The notes below the pieces were generated by a model, which was not told where the DNA came from, ran no database searches, and was given only the letters and a program-made list of their open reading frames with translations. From a virus, in the IMG/VR virus record IMGVR_UViG_3300020122_000371, positions 1 through 48,451 of that record: 48,451 bases of DNA; one strand, 5' to 3'. Below are positions 30,586 through 48,451 of the stretch, piece after piece; position 1 is the stretch's first letter, and each line of letters starts with the position of its first letter. The position numbers were made by a program, and so were the translations under genes.

Positions 30586-30873
30586 TCATAGGCTGTGCGG
30601 CCCTTGTTCTCTTAACTTAGCGAGAGCGGCTATCCACATATCCCTTGCACGGTCATCGCCCGGAATCCCTGGTTCGAGCCACTCCGCACATTGCTGCCCT
30701 GCCACCAGCACCGGCTGCACCCTCTCCATCAGCATCTCAAACGCTCGATCAATCGAATCATTGCCGCTGGTGCCAAGCACGGCATTGGTTACATCCGTCC
30801 CCAGCAGGTACATTTCCCGCTCAAACGGTTTCAGGTCCCGCCCATTCATGTCGTTTTTACCTTGGTCGCTCAT
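30586..30873 (-). CDS. Helical protein, 95 aa; paralogue of the 77-aa gene
   Basis: Residues 21-30 form a helix, and LMERVQPVLVAGQQCAEWLE with the end MWIAALAKLREQG match the smaller gene at 29.9-30.1 kb. The first 20 residues are polar. It overlaps the PEP-CTERM gene by ATGA. Function unknown. Confidence 0.6.
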   Translation of the reverse strand: MSDQGKNDMNGRDLKPFEREMYLLGTDVTNAVLGTSGNDSIDRAFEMLMERVQPVLVAGQQCAEWLEPGIPGDDRARDMWIAALAKLREQGPHSL

Positions 30874-31502
30874 AGCTTCCTCTTAGGCAAGCGCAGAACC
30901 AAGAAATAAAGCAGCCCACATCCCAGCAGCGCTACGGACGCGGGTTCCAGCGTGGAAACAGGAATTTCTCCGAAGTGTACGGACAGTGGAGCGAGAGTCA
31001 CGCTGACGCGGTCGTCGATGGCGATCATCGATTGCGAATTGGCGATGGTGCAGTTGGTGAGATTGCAAAAAGTTAATCCGGCCAGCGATTGCTCGAGGCC
31101 GATGGCTTTGAGCACCGCGTTGATGGACAGTTGCAGCGAATCAGGCTCCTGTGCGCAGTAGGAACAAACCGCGGGATCCTGCGCCGCCAGGAGATTGCTG
31201 GCCCAGAGGTATGCGACATTCTGGTGCAGAGAAAGAGCCGACTGCTGCTTGATCTCCTGCGCGATCTGATTGGTGGTCAGCGAATCCGCTTTCGCAGGCC
31301 AGACGTTCAGAAAAAGAAACGACAGCAGAAATGCGGCGATGATGATCACGGCCATCCGTAAAGTAATGCGCGGCCGGGAACGCTTGGAATAAACGGCAGT
31401 CGTGGCTTGCACCAAACGTTCGCGGTCTTCCTGTTCGTCATCCAGCAAACGGATCGCAGCAAACGGGTCGTGGCGGTACGGGGCATTGAGATTTACTTTC
31501 AT
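30870..31502 (-). CDS. Exported protein with near-PEP-CTERM sorting tail
   Basis: Start at 31502 follows AAAAAGGAGAA. A 47-residue charged cytoplasmic segment precedes a membrane/signal helix (MAVIIIAAFLLSFLFLNVW, 50-68) ending in AKADS, a probable cleavage site. The outer part has four cysteines (C113, C116, C146, C151). The tail TLEPASVALLGCGLLYFLVL (184-203) plus RLPKRKL matches PEP-CTERM apart from L for the first P. Such tails are processed by exosortase in Gram-negative bacteria. A phage protein with this tail is unusual. It may use host sorting to reach the cell surface. Exclusion or adhesion is only a guess. Confidence 0.7.
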   Translation of the reverse strand: MKVNLNAPYRHDPFAAIRLLDDEQEDRERLVQATTAVYSKRSRPRITLRMAVIIIAAFLLSFLFLNVWPAKADSLTTNQIAQEIKQQSALSLHQNVAYLWASNLLAAQDPAVCSYCAQEPDSLQLSINAVLKAIGLEQSLAGLTFCNLTNCTIANSQSMIAIDDRVSVTLAPLSVHFGEIPVSTLEPASVALLGCGLLYFLVLRLPKRKL

Positions 31503-31522: not shown

Positions 31523-31603
31523 TTACTGCACATAGACCAGAAACAGGATCAGAAGCACGAAGCCGATCAGAGTGATGGCCATGCTGATGAAGAATTTTTT
31601 CAT
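31523..31603 (-). CDS. Tiny membrane protein, 26 aa
   Basis: The ATG at 31603 overlaps the stop of the RHH gene (ATGA), with a purine-rich stretch upstream. MKKFFISMAITLIGFVLLIL and six more residues form a single membrane helix. It directly precedes the PEP-CTERM gene. Possibly a toxin-, holin- or leader-like peptide; unproven. Confidence 0.5.
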   Translation of the reverse strand: MKKFFISMAITLIGFVLLILFLVYVQ

Positions 31604-32065: not shown

Positions 32066-32094
32066 GCTATACCTAATAGGGGATATACTGTCAA
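32066..32094 (-). promoter_or_regulatory. Strong promoter for the RHH gene; leaderless transcript
   Basis: TTGACA (32094-32089), a 17-base spacer and TATAGC (32071-32066) form a near-consensus site on the minus strand. The start point would fall about one base before the ATG at 32058, with no room for a Shine-Dalgarno. The spacer holds a CCTATTAGG near-palindrome, a possible operator for the RHH protein. The -35 box overlaps the terS stop. Confidence 0.65.
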
Positions 32095-32651
32095 GCGGGA
32101 TATTCTCTGGGGGGCTTGTTTCCGTTCGTTTTCGCGCCATTTAGCCCATTTGCTCCGTTTGGCTTTGGACTCACTGGCGGCAACTGTCCCGGGCCGACGT
32201 CTGGCATGTACACGCCAATCTGCGGCCGGGGCACGTCGATGATCACCACTTTCACGCCGAATTGCGCAGCCTCGCGGGGATCCGTCGGGGCGTAAGCTCC
32301 ATGCATGCGCAGCATTTTATCGATGGCATTCAGTTGCGCGGCGTTGTCTTCCATCTCCACGAAGTCGGTGAATTCTCCTTCGTCCGTCGCGAACTTCGTT
32401 TCCTTGGCCTCGAGTTTCGGAGCCAGATATTTCTTGATCAAAACGGGTAGTGAGTATCCGGCTTCGTCCAGCAACTCCGGAACCTTCAATTGCCGTAGCG
32501 CCTGATATCCGGATTGCGCGGCATGCTTCGGAGAGTATCCTGCGGCACGAGCAGCTTGCGCGGCACTCTTGCTGACCATGTACTCTTTAGCGAAGCGGGA
32601 CTGGAGTGCCGTGGGCCGCTTCCTGGGTTTTCCTGATTCTCCCTTTTTCAT
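32091..32651 (-). CDS. terS: Terminase small subunit
   Basis: Residues 16-62 (RFAKEYMVSKSAAQAARAAG and HAAQSGYQALRQLKVPELLD) give the helix-turn-helix pattern of Terminase_2-type small subunits. A linker follows. Residues 72-117 include a helix (QLNAIDKMLRMHG) that fits the oligomerisation core. The tail (about 135-186) is proline/asparagine-rich and disordered. TerS recognises packaging DNA. It lies 7.7 kb from terL, an unusual separation. Its stop is part of the next promoter's -35 box. Confidence 0.78.
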   Translation of the reverse strand: MKKGESGKPRKRPTALQSRFAKEYMVSKSAAQAARAAGYSPKHAAQSGYQALRQLKVPELLDEAGYSLPVLIKKYLAPKLEAKETKFATDEGEFTDFVEMEDNAAQLNAIDKMLRMHGAYAPTDPREAAQFGVKVVIIDVPRPQIGVYMPDVGPGQLPPVSPKPNGANGLNGAKTNGNKPPREYPA

Positions 32652-32653
32652 TT

Positions 32654-33115
32654 TTACGGCAACTCCTTCACTAGTAAGTGCTGGCCACTGGTACTGATTT
32701 TAATTTCTCCGTCGTCCGTCCGCGCATTTTTCCAGCCAGCCATTTTGAAACAATAGCCCGCATTTACGCTCGCGATCTTCTTCGGATGAACGTAAGTGAA
32801 CATGCGATTCGGACCCCAGCGATCAAACGCTATTTGCTCGCACTCGAGAATTACATCGCTAGATTTTCTAGAGGATTCGTTTCTGAATATCGCGCAGTTG
32901 TAACCAGACTGATTGTCGAAACGCATATTATCCAGCGCCCAGATCCAACCGAAAAGAATCGTGCCTTCAGTATTGCGGATTACGATCTTGCGTCCGTTGT
33001 TTAGAAACTGGCGAGCTCCAACCGTGCGCCGAGAATAATGGCGATCAGCGAGCGCGGCCATTTCCGGATCGAATGGAGTGGTGACAACCAGCTCTTCACT
33101 GAAAGGTAAAAGCAT
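32654..33115 (-). CDS. Mom-like / GNAT-fold protein, 153 aa
   Basis: Conserved blocks ADRHYSRRTVGARQF (23-37), GYNCAIFRNESS (71-82) and ILECEQIAFDRWGPNRMFTY (89-108), then VNAGYCFKMAGW (117-128), match a family of phage GNAT-fold proteins related to Mu Mom, which modifies adenine in DNA. The proline/glycine-rich middle is typical. Whether this one modifies DNA is unknown. It sits next to terS, a fitting place for protection of packaged DNA. Confidence 0.55.
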   Translation of the reverse strand: MLLPFSEELVVTTPFDPEMAALADRHYSRRTVGARQFLNNGRKIVIRNTEGTILFGWIWALDNMRFDNQSGYNCAIFRNESSRKSSDVILECEQIAFDRWGPNRMFTYVHPKKIASVNAGYCFKMAGWKNARTDDGEIKISTSGQHLLVKELP

Positions 33116-41304: not shown

Positions 41305-41645
41305 CCAAAACGAAGGGGAACCACCTGCCAGACAAGCGCAATGCTCCAAAACGCAACGGTAAGCGAGGCATTAGCCTAGCCGATTCGGATCTCGGCAAGA
41401 CCAGCCGCTTGCCGGGAATGGAGGATGCCGCAATAGAAGAACTGGAAGACTGCGCCAGAAACTACGCGAAGTTGCGCGACAGGCGCATCGTCCTGCTCAA
41501 CGAGGAAGTGGACATGAAAGAGGATCTGCTGGCACTGATGAAGCGAAACAACAAGGAAAAGTACATCCACGACGGCATCGAGATCAGCATCACCCACGAA
41601 AAAGAAAAAGTGAAAGTGATCATCAAGGAAGACGAAGAGGAATGA
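41301..41645 (+). CDS. Hypothetical charged coiled-coil protein, 114 aa
   Basis: The basic N-terminus is followed by a long helix (EELEDCARNYAKLRDRRIVL, then NEEVDMKEDLLALMKRNNKE) and a strand pair (ISITHEKEKVKVIIKE) with an acidic end. It directly precedes the ATPase gene with an ATGA overlap, and may be its partner. Unknown function. Confidence 0.6.
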   Translation: MTKTKGNHLPDKRNAPKRNGKRGISLADSDLGKTSRLPGMEDAAIEELEDCARNYAKLRDRRIVLLNEEVDMKEDLLALMKRNNKEKYIHDGIEISITHEKEKVKVIIKEDEEE

Positions 41646-43345
41646 CGCGCCATTTCCCCGTACCAACAGAAGTTTTCGACCAGCACATCATCGTGCTCGG
41701 CAAGACACGCTCGGGAAAGTCATCCGCAATGCGTTTTCTTGTCGAGCATCTGCTGGATGCGGAAAAGCCTGTCTGCATCATCGATCCAAAAGGCGACTGG
41801 TGGGGGCTGAAAGCATCGGCTGACGGTAAGCACGCGGGATATCCCGTTGTTATTTTCGGCGGAGAGCATGGAGACGTTCCGCTCAATGCACGCAGCGGCT
41901 CCGCCGTGGCTGAACTCGTAGCGACTGGCAACCGTTCCGCCATCATTGACCTCGGCGGATGGATGCCCGGCGACCGCACGCAATTCTGGATCGACTTCGC
42001 TTCAACTTACTTCCGCACGCACCGCGGCCGACACTGGCTGGTGATCGACGAGGTTCACAACCTTTGCCCTAAAGGCAAGATCATGGACCCCAACGCTGGC
42101 AAGATGCTGCACTGGACGAATCGTTTGGCGAGTGAAGGGCTTGGCAAGGGCATCGCCATTCTCGCCGCCAGCCAGCGTCCGCAAAAGGTCCATAACGATT
42201 TTCTAACCAGTTGTGAAACGCTCATCGCCATGCGCGTGATTCACAAAGCCGACCGGGATGCGCTCAAGGATTGGGTCGACGCCTGCGGAGAACCGGAGAA
42301 AGGCAAGGAAGTGCTGAACACTGTCGCACAAAACGAGCGCGGCGAAGCTTGGGTGTACTCTCCGGAATCCAAATTCGGCCCAGAGAAGATCAAATTCCCG
42401 ATGTTCTCTACCTACGACTCTTTCAAGCCGCAACGTGCCGGAGATAGCGCCAAACTGCAGGGATGGGCCGAGGTAAATCTAGCCGAAGTCACGAAAAAGC
42501 TTGAAACCGTGGTGAAAGAAGCCGAAGCCAACGATCCGGCGAAACTCAAACAGCGTATTCGAGAGTTGGAACAACAGATTCGCAAAATTCCAGAGCATCG
42601 TGATGCGGCACGGGAAAAGGAACTGGAGACATTGGTGGCCGCTCTCAATCGCCACATCGGAAATATGGAAGATTTTATCTCCGATCAAGCCAGCGCCATG
42701 GGTAATGCGATGGGTGTTCTTCAAAAGATGTGCGACCGCCAGCCGCCGGACATCGACTCCAAAAAATTGCAGCCCATCATCAAGAAGAATATTCCGACGG
42801 GAAGCAGTTTCCTGCATCCCAAGCTGTTGTTTCCAATAAAGCCAGCAGAACCTCTTAAAATGAATGGTGATTTTACTGGCCCGCAGAAAAGAATCCTTGT
42901 CGCCCTGGGCGAACTGCTCTCCATTGGCAAGAACGCACCGCCCAAGGAAATGGTCGCAGCGTGGGCTTCTTACTCCGTAAACGGTTCCGCGTTTACAAAT
43001 CCACTCAGCGCTCTAAAGACGTGCGCGGCGGTTCACTACCCTCAACCTGGCCATGTAGCTCTCACCATAGCAGGACAAGTCGACATAGGAGCACCGCTGC
43101 CAACTCCTACGCGTGATGAAATCCTGCACCGCATTCAGGATATTTGCACCGGGCCAGAGTGGAAGATTTTTCAGGCCACATTGAGCGGCGAAGCGCTGAC
43201 ACGCTCAGAACTGGCGGAGAAGAGCGGTTACTCCGAAGGTGGGAGTGCATTCACAAACCCGCTCAGTGCCCTAAAAACGAAAGGGCTTGTGACTTACCCG
43301 CAACAGGGAAGCGTACAAGTGGCAGACTGGCTAAACGAACTGTAA
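41642..43345 (+). CDS. HerA-like ATPase with tandem winged-helix tails
   Basis: Motor-type ATPase of the HerA/FtsK (DUF87) group. Walker A GKTRSGKSS (20-28), Walker B LVIDEVHN (133-140, acidic D136 and E137) and AILAASQRPQKV (about 171-182) are clear. A coiled coil (about 280-350) follows. The C-terminus carries two related units with GSAFTNPLSALKT (448-460 and 534-546), probably winged-helix domains that arose by duplication. Bacterial HerA proteins act in DNA end processing and in anti-phage defence with SIR2 or nuclease partners. A phage copy may serve packaging, replication or counter-defence. ATGA overlap at its start. Confidence 0.7.
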   Translation: MTRHFPVPTEVFDQHIIVLGKTRSGKSSAMRFLVEHLLDAEKPVCIIDPKGDWWGLKASADGKHAGYPVVIFGGEHGDVPLNARSGSAVAELVATGNRSAIIDLGGWMPGDRTQFWIDFASTYFRTHRGRHWLVIDEVHNLCPKGKIMDPNAGKMLHWTNRLASEGLGKGIAILAASQRPQKVHNDFLTSCETLIAMRVIHKADRDALKDWVDACGEPEKGKEVLNTVAQNERGEAWVYSPESKFGPEKIKFPMFSTYDSFKPQRAGDSAKLQGWAEVNLAEVTKKLETVVKEAEANDPAKLKQRIRELEQQIRKIPEHRDAAREKELETLVAALNRHIGNMEDFISDQASAMGNAMGVLQKMCDRQPPDIDSKKLQPIIKKNIPTGSSFLHPKLLFPIKPAEPLKMNGDFTGPQKRILVALGELLSIGKNAPPKEMVAAWASYSVNGSAFTNPLSALKTCAAVHYPQPGHVALTIAGQVDIGAPLPTPTRDEILHRIQDICTGPEWKIFQATLSGEALTRSELAEKSGYSEGGSAFTNPLSALKTKGLVTYPQQGSVQVADWLNEL

Positions 43346-46132: not shown

Positions 46133-48451
46133 TTAAGTGTTCCCCGAATGATCTTCATTCTTCCACGGCCGCAATATTGTCTTGATGGTGCGGACATCAC
46201 GTTGCCCACGCCAGTCGACCGCGGCACCCACGCGCAGCACGCCATGTTTCTTTCCCGTTCCGGTGATGGCCACATTTTGCGGAGAACCGATGGATATTCC
46301 TGTGAAAAGAAAAACCAGCGTATCGTTTTGCGATCCAGGGCTGGTTGGCGTGAAGGTCACGCTGGTGGTGCAGGTCGCTCCGGTGGCCAGCGTGCCCACG
46401 CAGGAATTTCCCGAAATGGCGTACTGCGTTCCGGTCGTCAACGCCACGGAAGAAAAGGTAATGGTGGACCCGCTCTGGTTGGTGAAAACGACCGATCTCG
46501 GAGAACTCGCTTTTTTTACCAGTTGGTTTCCGAATGCCAGAGACGTCGGAACGAGCAGCACGGTGGCTGTTCCGGTTACGTCGAGCGAAACTACATCCGG
46601 ACTCTGAGGATCATTGCTGATGATCACAACCGCCGCCTGACGAAGTCCAGTAGCCGACGGCGTGGAGGTGACGGTGATCTGACAAGTTCCTCCAGGGGCT
46701 ATCGATAGAGAATCGGTGCAGGTATTTGCGGAGATGGTGAAATCCGCGGCATTCGCTCCAGAGAGAGAAACGGCGCTGGAATTTCCGAGCACCAGATTGG
46801 CGGTCCCGCTGCTCGTGACCGTGATGACTTGCGGTGCGCTGGTGACCGACTCCACGATCGAGCCGAAATGAATCACCGATGGCGAAGGAGTAGCCGAGGC
46901 CGCCGTCGATACCACCGCGCTCACCGCCGCACAGTAAGCGCTGGTGCCTGCGCTGTTGTACGCCGCAACCTGATAGTAATAAGTTCCGTTGGCTAGACTC
47001 GTATCGGTGAAACTGGTTCCGGTGGTGACATTGGCAATCTGCGTGTACGGCCCGGCAAGAATCGTGGCCCGTTGCAGCAGGTATCCGGTCGGACTGCCCG
47101 TAGAAGGATTCCAACTGAGCGCGACACTCGAGCCGCCGACGACTGCAGCAAGCCCGGTAGGAACCGAAGGAATCGAAACTGAACTTGTTCCGTTTCCTGT
47201 AAGATTTCCGGAACCGTTCACCGTTCCGGTCATGGTCAGCGTTCCGGAATAAGCGGTGATCGCCACGGGCAGGAAATTCACTTTCACGATGCAACTGTTT
47301 CCGGCGTTGATGGTTCCGCTTGCTGGGCACTGCCCGCCGAGTCCCGTATTTCCGTTAGTGAAAACGGATGGCGAAGCCACGATCGATGAGTAAGTCTGCG
47401 TGGCTGTGCCGACATTGGAGATGGTCACATTGAGCGAAGAAGTGACTCCCGTGTTCACATTTCCGAAAGCCGCAGGATTCGGAGAAAAAGAAAGAGACGG
47501 CGAAGAAGTCCCTGAATTGTAGGCTCCGGCATCCCACCGCAGGACACCAGGACGTGCCGTTGCATTGCGGCTGGCTCCGGCCGTGGTGTCGGAATTAAGC
47601 GCGGTGATCCCGAGGCTGGTCAGGTTCTGACCTAGATTGATCAGTGGAGCTCCGGCTTGCGGAATTCCAGTTGCGGACACTCCGACGACAGGAGAAGTGC
47701 TGGAATTGCCGTTCTGCCCGGTGCCAGCGCCAAACACCGCGTTGAATTGGGCGTAGGTTCTGAACCCAAGCGCGGAATTATAAAAACGCGTACCGGAAGC
47801 ACCGTTGACGAAATCGTTGTAGTCCATTCCTCCAGTGACCCCAGTGACTCCAGTTTTGTACTCCATGAGCACCGATCCGCCGTTGATCAGATTGTTTCGC
47901 ACGTCGACCGTGCCTTCGATTACCACGGCGGAATTGACCTGCGCCGAAGACATCAGCACGGTATTGTTGTAGAGTTTTCCGGTTCCTGTCGATCCCACCG
48001 TATTGCAAATCGCTCCGTTGTTCAGATTCCGGTTGTTCACCGTGCCGATGTAGATGTTGTTGTACATGGTCTGATCGCCGGACTGTAATTCGGTGAAGTT
48101 CATGGCGGTGTTGTAGATGCCCCAGTCGCCATCGAAAAGGCTGCTACTGATCACGATCTGGGAAATATTTCCAGTGCCGCCGGGGGTTTTGAACATGTGC
48201 GTGCCGTCGTGGTGGTAGCAGGGGTTTCCGCTGCAGGCTGTTGCAGTGGTATCCCAATTCACCAAGTCGTGTACATGGTTGTCGTGGAACGAAACGCCCA
48301 CGAAGTTTTCGTTGATCACGCCGACCGCGAGGCCGTGGTCTATATTATAGATTTCCGTCCAGCCTACTTCGATTGGGCCCACTCCATTGCCTGCATATAT
48401 CGCCCAGTTGGCATCGTGAATGATCGAATGCAGAACCTTGAAAGTTAGCGC
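46133..48451 (-). CDS. Large host-like adhesin, N-terminus cut by window edge
   Basis: The frame is open up to the right edge (at least 772 codons), so the start is missing. The visible N-terminal 250 residues look like a right-handed beta-helix. A HYDIN/choice-of-anchor-D unit (SFSPNPAAFGNVNTG), a fibronectin-III-like domain (VPTGLAAVVGGSSVALSWNP) and two further choice-of-anchor-D units (IHFGSIVESVTSAPQVIT; LAFGNQLVKKASSPRSVVF) follow. The last 25 residues are basic. Such repeats are frequent in acidobacterial surface proteins. It probably is a receptor-binding or environmental-surface-binding protein acquired from a host. Confidence 0.7.
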   Translation of the reverse strand, partial: ALTFKVLHSIIHDANWAIYAGNGVGPIEVGWTEIYNIDHGLAVGVINENFVGVSFHDNHVHDLVNWDTTATACSGNPCYHHDGTHMFKTPGGTGNISQIVISSSLFDGDWGIYNTAMNFTELQSGDQTMYNNIYIGTVNNRNLNNGAICNTVGSTGTGKLYNNTVLMSSAQVNSAVVIEGTVDVRNNLINGGSVLMEYKTGVTGVTGGMDYNDFVNGASGTRFYNSALGFRTYAQFNAVFGAGTGQNGNSSTSPVVGVSATGIPQAGAPLINLGQNLTSLGITALNSDTTAGASRNATARPGVLRWDAGAYNSGTSSPSLSFSPNPAAFGNVNTGVTSSLNVTISNVGTATQTYSSIVASPSVFTNGNTGLGGQCPASGTINAGNSCIVKVNFLPVAITAYSGTLTMTGTVNGSGNLTGNGTSSVSIPSVPTGLAAVVGGSSVALSWNPSTGSPTGYLLQRATILAGPYTQIANVTTGTSFTDTSLANGTYYYQVAAYNSAGTSAYCAAVSAVVSTAASATPSPSVIHFGSIVESVTSAPQVITVTSSGTANLVLGNSSAVSLSGANAADFTISANTCTDSLSIAPGGTCQITVTSTPSATGLRQAAVVIISNDPQSPDVVSLDVTGTATVLLVPTSLAFGNQLVKKASSPRSVVFTNQSGSTITFSSVALTTGTQYAISGNSCVGTLATGATCTTSVTFTPTSPGSQNDTLVFLFTGISIGSPQNVAITGTGKKHGVLRVGAAVDWRGQRDVRTIKTILRPWKNEDHSGNT

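Follow-up and report, generated by a model that had tools for sequence, protein, structure and literature searches.

A phage gene predicted to encode an envelope protein of the PEP-CTERM family with a Leu-Glu-Pro motif

Results

Organisation of the locus and of the encoded protein

The window analysed here is the whole of IMG/VR virus record IMGVR_UViG_3300020122_000371 (48,451 bases), from a soil phage. Among its phage genes, on the terminase side, lies a gene that we assign to a candidate envelope protein of the PEP-CTERM family, based on its open reading frame, its homologues in phages, and a dN/dS well below 1. A Shine-Dalgarno sequence (AAGGAG) stands just 5' of the ATG at 31502; an in-frame start further upstream (31643) was discarded because the good ribosome site is the one at 31502. 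The features of the gene and of its surroundings are the following:

30870..31502 (-): coding sequence of the putative PEP-CTERM-family envelope protein (LEP variant), 210 aa plus stop
31362..31502 (-): residues 1-47, predicted cytoplasmic N-terminal part, similar to a separate single-transmembrane gene (~75 aa) of relatives
31287..31355 (-): residues 50-72, signal peptide or transmembrane segment, hydropathy 3.06, predicted signal-peptidase site AKA/DS
30954..31286 (-): residues 73-183 (~111 residues), predicted periplasmic ectodomain, 68% identity with L185/L187 and ~40% with L089/L090
31155..31166 (-): cysteine pair 1, CSYC (C113, C116); CDYC in L185/L187, whole segment missing in L089/L090
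31098..31142 (-): residues 121-135, invariant core DSLQLSINAVLKAIG, the same in all five homologues
31050..31067 (-): cysteine pair 2, CNLTNC (C146, C151); kept in L185/L187, missing in L089/L090 along with pair 1
30942..30950 (-): LEP (CTG GAA CCC) at the position of the PEP motif, from codon comparison with relatives
30894..30941 (-): residues 188-203, C-terminal hydrophobic helix, hydropathy 2.36
30873..30893 (-): residues 204-210, basic C-terminus RLPKRKL
31523..31603 (-): 26-aa single-transmembrane open reading frame (MKKFFISMAITLIGFVLLILFLVYVQ), immediately upstream of the PEP-CTERM-family gene, as read from the sequence
32091..32651 (-): gene for the small terminase subunit, same strand, upstream of the PEP-CTERM-family gene (phrog_51, E=8e-11)

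Two other genes of the window deserve mention. The product of 32654-33115 (-) matches phrog_24928 (E=6e-26) and by eye resembles the Mom DNA-modification family, with no Pfam match at E 0.01. At 41642-43345 (+) lies a HerA/FtsK-like ATPase gene matching phrog_2666 (annotated terminase), which is present in 57 viral contigs and, among the close relatives of the window phage, in G012 only.

The initial annotation of this gene had described its product as phage-encoded and membrane-targeted. Both points are borne out, by the homologues in phages and by a signal/membrane segment whose end, AKA/DS, aligns with AHA/DT and ARA/DT, the ends of the signal peptides in relatives. The 47-aa extension preceding this segment is basic close to the membrane and makes the N-terminus unusually long compared with a classical signal peptide. 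Hydrophobic stretches span residues 44-70 and 187-206, and residues 30-49 and 204-210 have net charges of +5 and +4, respectively. Because of this distribution of charges and hydrophobic segments, both ends of the protein are predicted to be cytoplasmic and residues ~73-183 periplasmic. The C-terminus reads ...GEIPVS-TLEP-ASVALLGCGLLYFLVL-RLPKRKL. The four cysteines reported initially are the number in the ectodomain (C113/C116 and C146/C151), whereas the protein has five in total, the last (C195) lying within the tail helix. The joint retention or loss of the two pairs would fit two disulfides or one metal site. Both structure models of the protein have a mean pLDDT of ~45.

Homologues in other phages

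Pattern searches with the window protein against viral and genome contigs returned no relatives, and the INPHARED phages gave no homologues (matches only at E near 1 or worse). Only two routes led to homologues: the phage's own relatives, and a DNA pattern describing the conserved core. The search with the MCP-like protein of the window identified 23 loci in related phages, mostly with 70-80% identity in that protein, several of them near 68 kb. The 68-kb relatives G018 and G016 encode the same ectodomain (~40% identity) with a classical signal peptide and the tails TTPEPSTIAFLFAGLVFAILWRKTT and TTPESSTIAFLFAGLVFAVIRPILRRKREA, and G015 and G022 encode a different ectodomain with a TPEP motif and the tail TPEPSTLAFLFVGLLAILRRR. 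The motif is TPEP in L089, TPES in L090, and PEP in L093. When the viral collection was scanned with the DNA pattern for the conserved core QLSINAVLKAIG, L185 and L187 were added, whose mature part is 68% identical to that of the window protein and which have an intact STPEP (the tail of L185 is STPEPMTIVLLFCGLLYFFAISRKTR). In bacteria, we found no homologue of the ectodomain, either with a profile over 99 genomes from the phylum to which a Bryobacteraceae metagenome-assembled genome (MAG) belongs or in a scan of genome contigs.

We assign the window protein to the PEP-CTERM family because STPEP or TPEP stands at the corresponding position of its homologues. Judged from these sequences, the window gene is a phage-encoded member of the family in which the first proline of the motif became a leucine. 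The motif codons are CTG GAA CCC in the window, CCA GAG CCC or CCA GAA CCT in the relatives with PEP, and CCA GAA TCT in L090 (PES). The motif is hence one residue away from PEP, as initially proposed; where a single base change was then assumed, CTG differs at two bases from the CCA of the relatives.

Comparison with PEP-CTERM profiles

The PEP motif is nearly invariant in PEP-CTERM proteins, which have very low cysteine contents (Haft et al., PMC1569441). At the position of the near-invariant Pro-Glu-Pro the window protein has Leu-Glu-Pro; a helix directly follows the motif (residues 188-203) and a basic cluster ends the protein (RLPKRKL). Four cysteines in so short an ectodomain are atypical of the family. 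The initial annotation had proposed a profile search and would have taken the lack of a hit as evidence against its reading; the window sequence indeed has no match over the curated cut-offs of Pfam PF07589 and TIGR02595, and the other PEP-CTERM family models give only weak alignments at the end of its tail. The kinship that it proposed is nevertheless upheld as one of descent, since some of the homologues with intact motifs pass these cut-offs: the proteins of G015, G018, and G022 that of Pfam PEP-CTERM in the genome search, and those of L093 and L089 that of TIGR02595.

We also built a local profile from 93 PEP-CTERM tails of the Bryobacteraceae MAG and of viral contigs, leaving the window out. 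Searched with this profile, the window tail ranks third among 18,565 ORF tails (21.3 bits, E=1.5e-4). Higher scores are confined to G015 and G022, whose tails are one protein in two records, and the tail of G018 comes next below. The best tail outside the PEP-CTERM set reaches 8.7 bits, and this gap rules out a chance resemblance. In the strict sense, the window protein stands outside PEP-CTERM, because LEP departs from the nearly invariant motif, and its descent from the family is well supported by the comparison of tails and homologues.

Selection, exchange, and gene fusion

The comparison between the window gene and L185 gives a dN of ~0.27 and a dS of at least 1.5, and the dN/dS ratios are near 0.1 in L185 vs L187 and in L089 vs L090. 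These values point to strong purifying selection on the PEP-CTERM-family gene. L185 and L187 are found in 42-kb podovirus-type phages (G125, which carries L185, and G126). G125 has PHROGs matches to portal, major head, and terminase proteins, and from their sequence we read its portal and coat as P22-like. The 42-kb phages have only accessory genes in common with the window. One of these encodes, at 46133-48382 (-) of the window, an ASH/HYDIN-type Ig-domain protein with an fn3-like stretch (~50% identity to G125/G126). Phages of two different structural types thus have the same envelope protein. This suggests that its gene was exchanged between them, probably within a shared host.

The PEP-CTERM gene of the 68-kb relatives overlaps or adjoins, on its 3' side, a gene for a single-helix protein of ~75 aa. 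Residues 1-43 of the window protein are 37-40% identical, over 43 aa, to the N-terminus of these small genes in G015 and G022, with weak E-values (~0.01-0.03). Because of this resemblance, the window protein looks like a fusion of the PEP-CTERM protein with the small membrane protein, in reversed order. In the 68-kb relatives, this gene pair is part of an early operon, beside a regulator, RecT, and genes that we read as VRR-like and Gam-like. In G002, the place of the PEP-CTERM gene beside the small transmembrane gene is taken by a gene for a PAP2-family membrane protein (L091, 666-1331 (-); PF14378, E=4e-16), and the site therefore seems to exchange envelope genes. The core is invariant while the N-terminal modules are exchanged, which suggests that the function of the protein resides in its mature part.

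PEP-CTERM genes in viral contigs and exosortases in potential hosts

A strict PEP-CTERM DNA pattern matched at least 120 stretches of IMG/VR. At least 80 of them correspond to genuine C-terminal tails (80 of the 85 among the matches listed), most in proteins with signal peptides. Some of the PEP-CTERM contigs in this viral collection may be host DNA. G130 is clearly a phage: its PEP-CTERM gene (L319, 9268-10098 (-)) is flanked by genes for tail fibre and coat, and those for portal and terminase follow farther out. Other contigs with PEP-CTERM genes are phage-like, namely G127 (DNA polymerase), G133 (terminase-like), and G132 (231 kb), which has a phage-type nicotinamide phosphoribosyltransferase. 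Three viral contigs encode one and the same PEP-CTERM protein of ~150 aa (L318, 9843-10277 (-); L229; L262); it has an N-terminal cytoplasmic stretch and a helix, an architecture like that of the window protein, with no sequence relation seen between the two. Phage-borne PEP-CTERM genes look common in these contigs, which makes it doubtful that the use of host sorting by a phage is unusual, as had been supposed initially.

No exosortase passed the cut-off in the 30 phage records analysed, and sorting would therefore depend on the enzyme of the host. In the phylum that includes the Bryobacteraceae MAG, 33 of the 99 genomes sampled have an exosortase; the MAG itself has two, together with ~31 PEP-CTERM matches over the cut-off. 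The search for hosts with the MCP-like protein in 247 genomes gave nothing useful. The L185-type coat protein has one full-length match (40% identity), in a genome of the same phylum, in which we found no exosortase.

Discussion

We propose that the gene encodes an envelope protein that is anchored by host machinery, which also sorts its relatives with an intact motif, and that alters the surface of the infected cell, possibly for exclusion; we judge this account about evenly poised between right and wrong. The Sec-type signal segment would bring the protein to the inner membrane, with a probable cleavage after AKA. The ectodomain would then reside in the periplasm, where the C-terminal helix, whose basic end would be cytoplasmic, would hold it. 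In members with an intact PEP, the host exosortase would be expected to recognise the motif, to cut off the tail helix, and to deliver the protein to the outer surface or to the exopolysaccharide. Once there, it would modify the infected cell's surface and so, most plausibly, make superinfection or adsorption harder. The search of the window protein with PADLOC gave no match, which speaks neither for nor against exclusion. Because the first proline is a leucine in the window protein, the exosortase step may be tolerated by the host enzyme, or it may have been lost, leaving a membrane-anchored periplasmic protein.

The last possibility can be taken further. In a protein of PEP-CTERM descent, the proline-to-leucine change could have ended recognition by the exosortase, and the product would now be held in the inner membrane by two helices, with one domain in the periplasm. 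The window sequence falls below every curated PEP-CTERM cut-off, the N-terminal extension could provide a further membrane anchor that stays uncleaved, and the motif drifts in the family, since a second change is found in L090 (PES). Yet the helix, the basic end, and the GxG pattern are well kept, and the tail scores above those of several relatives with intact motifs, and we regard this alternative as less likely than our main account. The canonical PEP tails of homologues with the same ectodomain, of which two have a classical signal peptide, argue against a plain C-terminal anchor that was never related to exosortases, such as one would expect in a protein for lysis or membrane remodelling with two transmembrane segments. 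The two hydrophobic helices, the place of the window gene in the small-terminase-side operon, and the lack of a curated profile call would suit such a protein, but in the 68-kb relatives the gene is in the early operon, by regulator and recombination genes and not by late genes, and we deem it unlikely. Soil bacteria are rich in PEP-CTERM proteins and some of the viral contigs may be host sequence, but fortuitous capture of a host gene, or host DNA wrongly binned as viral, in either case with no phage function, is highly improbable given the phage genes on both sides of the window gene, the occurrence of the family under purifying selection in several phages of two structural types, and the lack of a bacterial homologue of the ectodomain in the 99 genomes and the contig scan.

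The proposed role as a sorted or anchored envelope protein has parallels in concept. SasX is a prophage-borne sortase substrate of Gram-positive bacteria with an LPXTG tail; it is likewise a surface protein on a mobile element that relies on a host sorting enzyme, with a different enzyme, motif, and envelope. Llp of T5 and Cor are phage-encoded cell-surface exclusion lipoproteins, and like the window protein they are small exported phage proteins in the envelope. Unlike it, they are lipid-anchored, and for the window protein exclusion is only proposed.

The closest likeness is to the PEP-CTERM/exosortase (EpsH) system (PF07589/TIGR02595; Haft et al. 2006, PMC1569441), with which the phage family shares a predicted N-terminal export signal, a little-known ectodomain, and the succession of motif, helix, and terminal basic cluster, with an intact PEP in most members. 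In contrast to that system, the phage genes are found in phage multi-gene operons without an exosortase of their own, and the window member differs further in its LEP motif, in the 47 residues of predicted cytoplasmic extension at its N-terminus, and in its two pairs of cysteines. Exosortase-type C-terminal domains in viral sequence data have one precedent: a paper (PMC11003980) names, in a single sentence, TIGR03118 proteins of hot-spring viral contigs, which carry a putative exosortase-interaction domain, as products of gene transfer. Our literature search, which covered mainly titles and abstracts, largely of open-access papers, found no paper treating phage-encoded PEP-CTERM proteins as a group.

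More generally, unrelated soil phages may share and exchange genes for substrates of host exosortases, by which they would place their own proteins at the cell surface, and the window protein would be a fused member of this set whose recognition motif is evolving; this broader view we consider as probable as its opposite. Exosortase substrates are known from bacterial chromosomes, and, if this is true, a recurrent phage-borne set would represent tools of infection. It would also offer small substrates with which to test a sorting system that is still thinly characterised in biochemical terms, and would account for some of the uncharacterised exported proteins found in soil phages.
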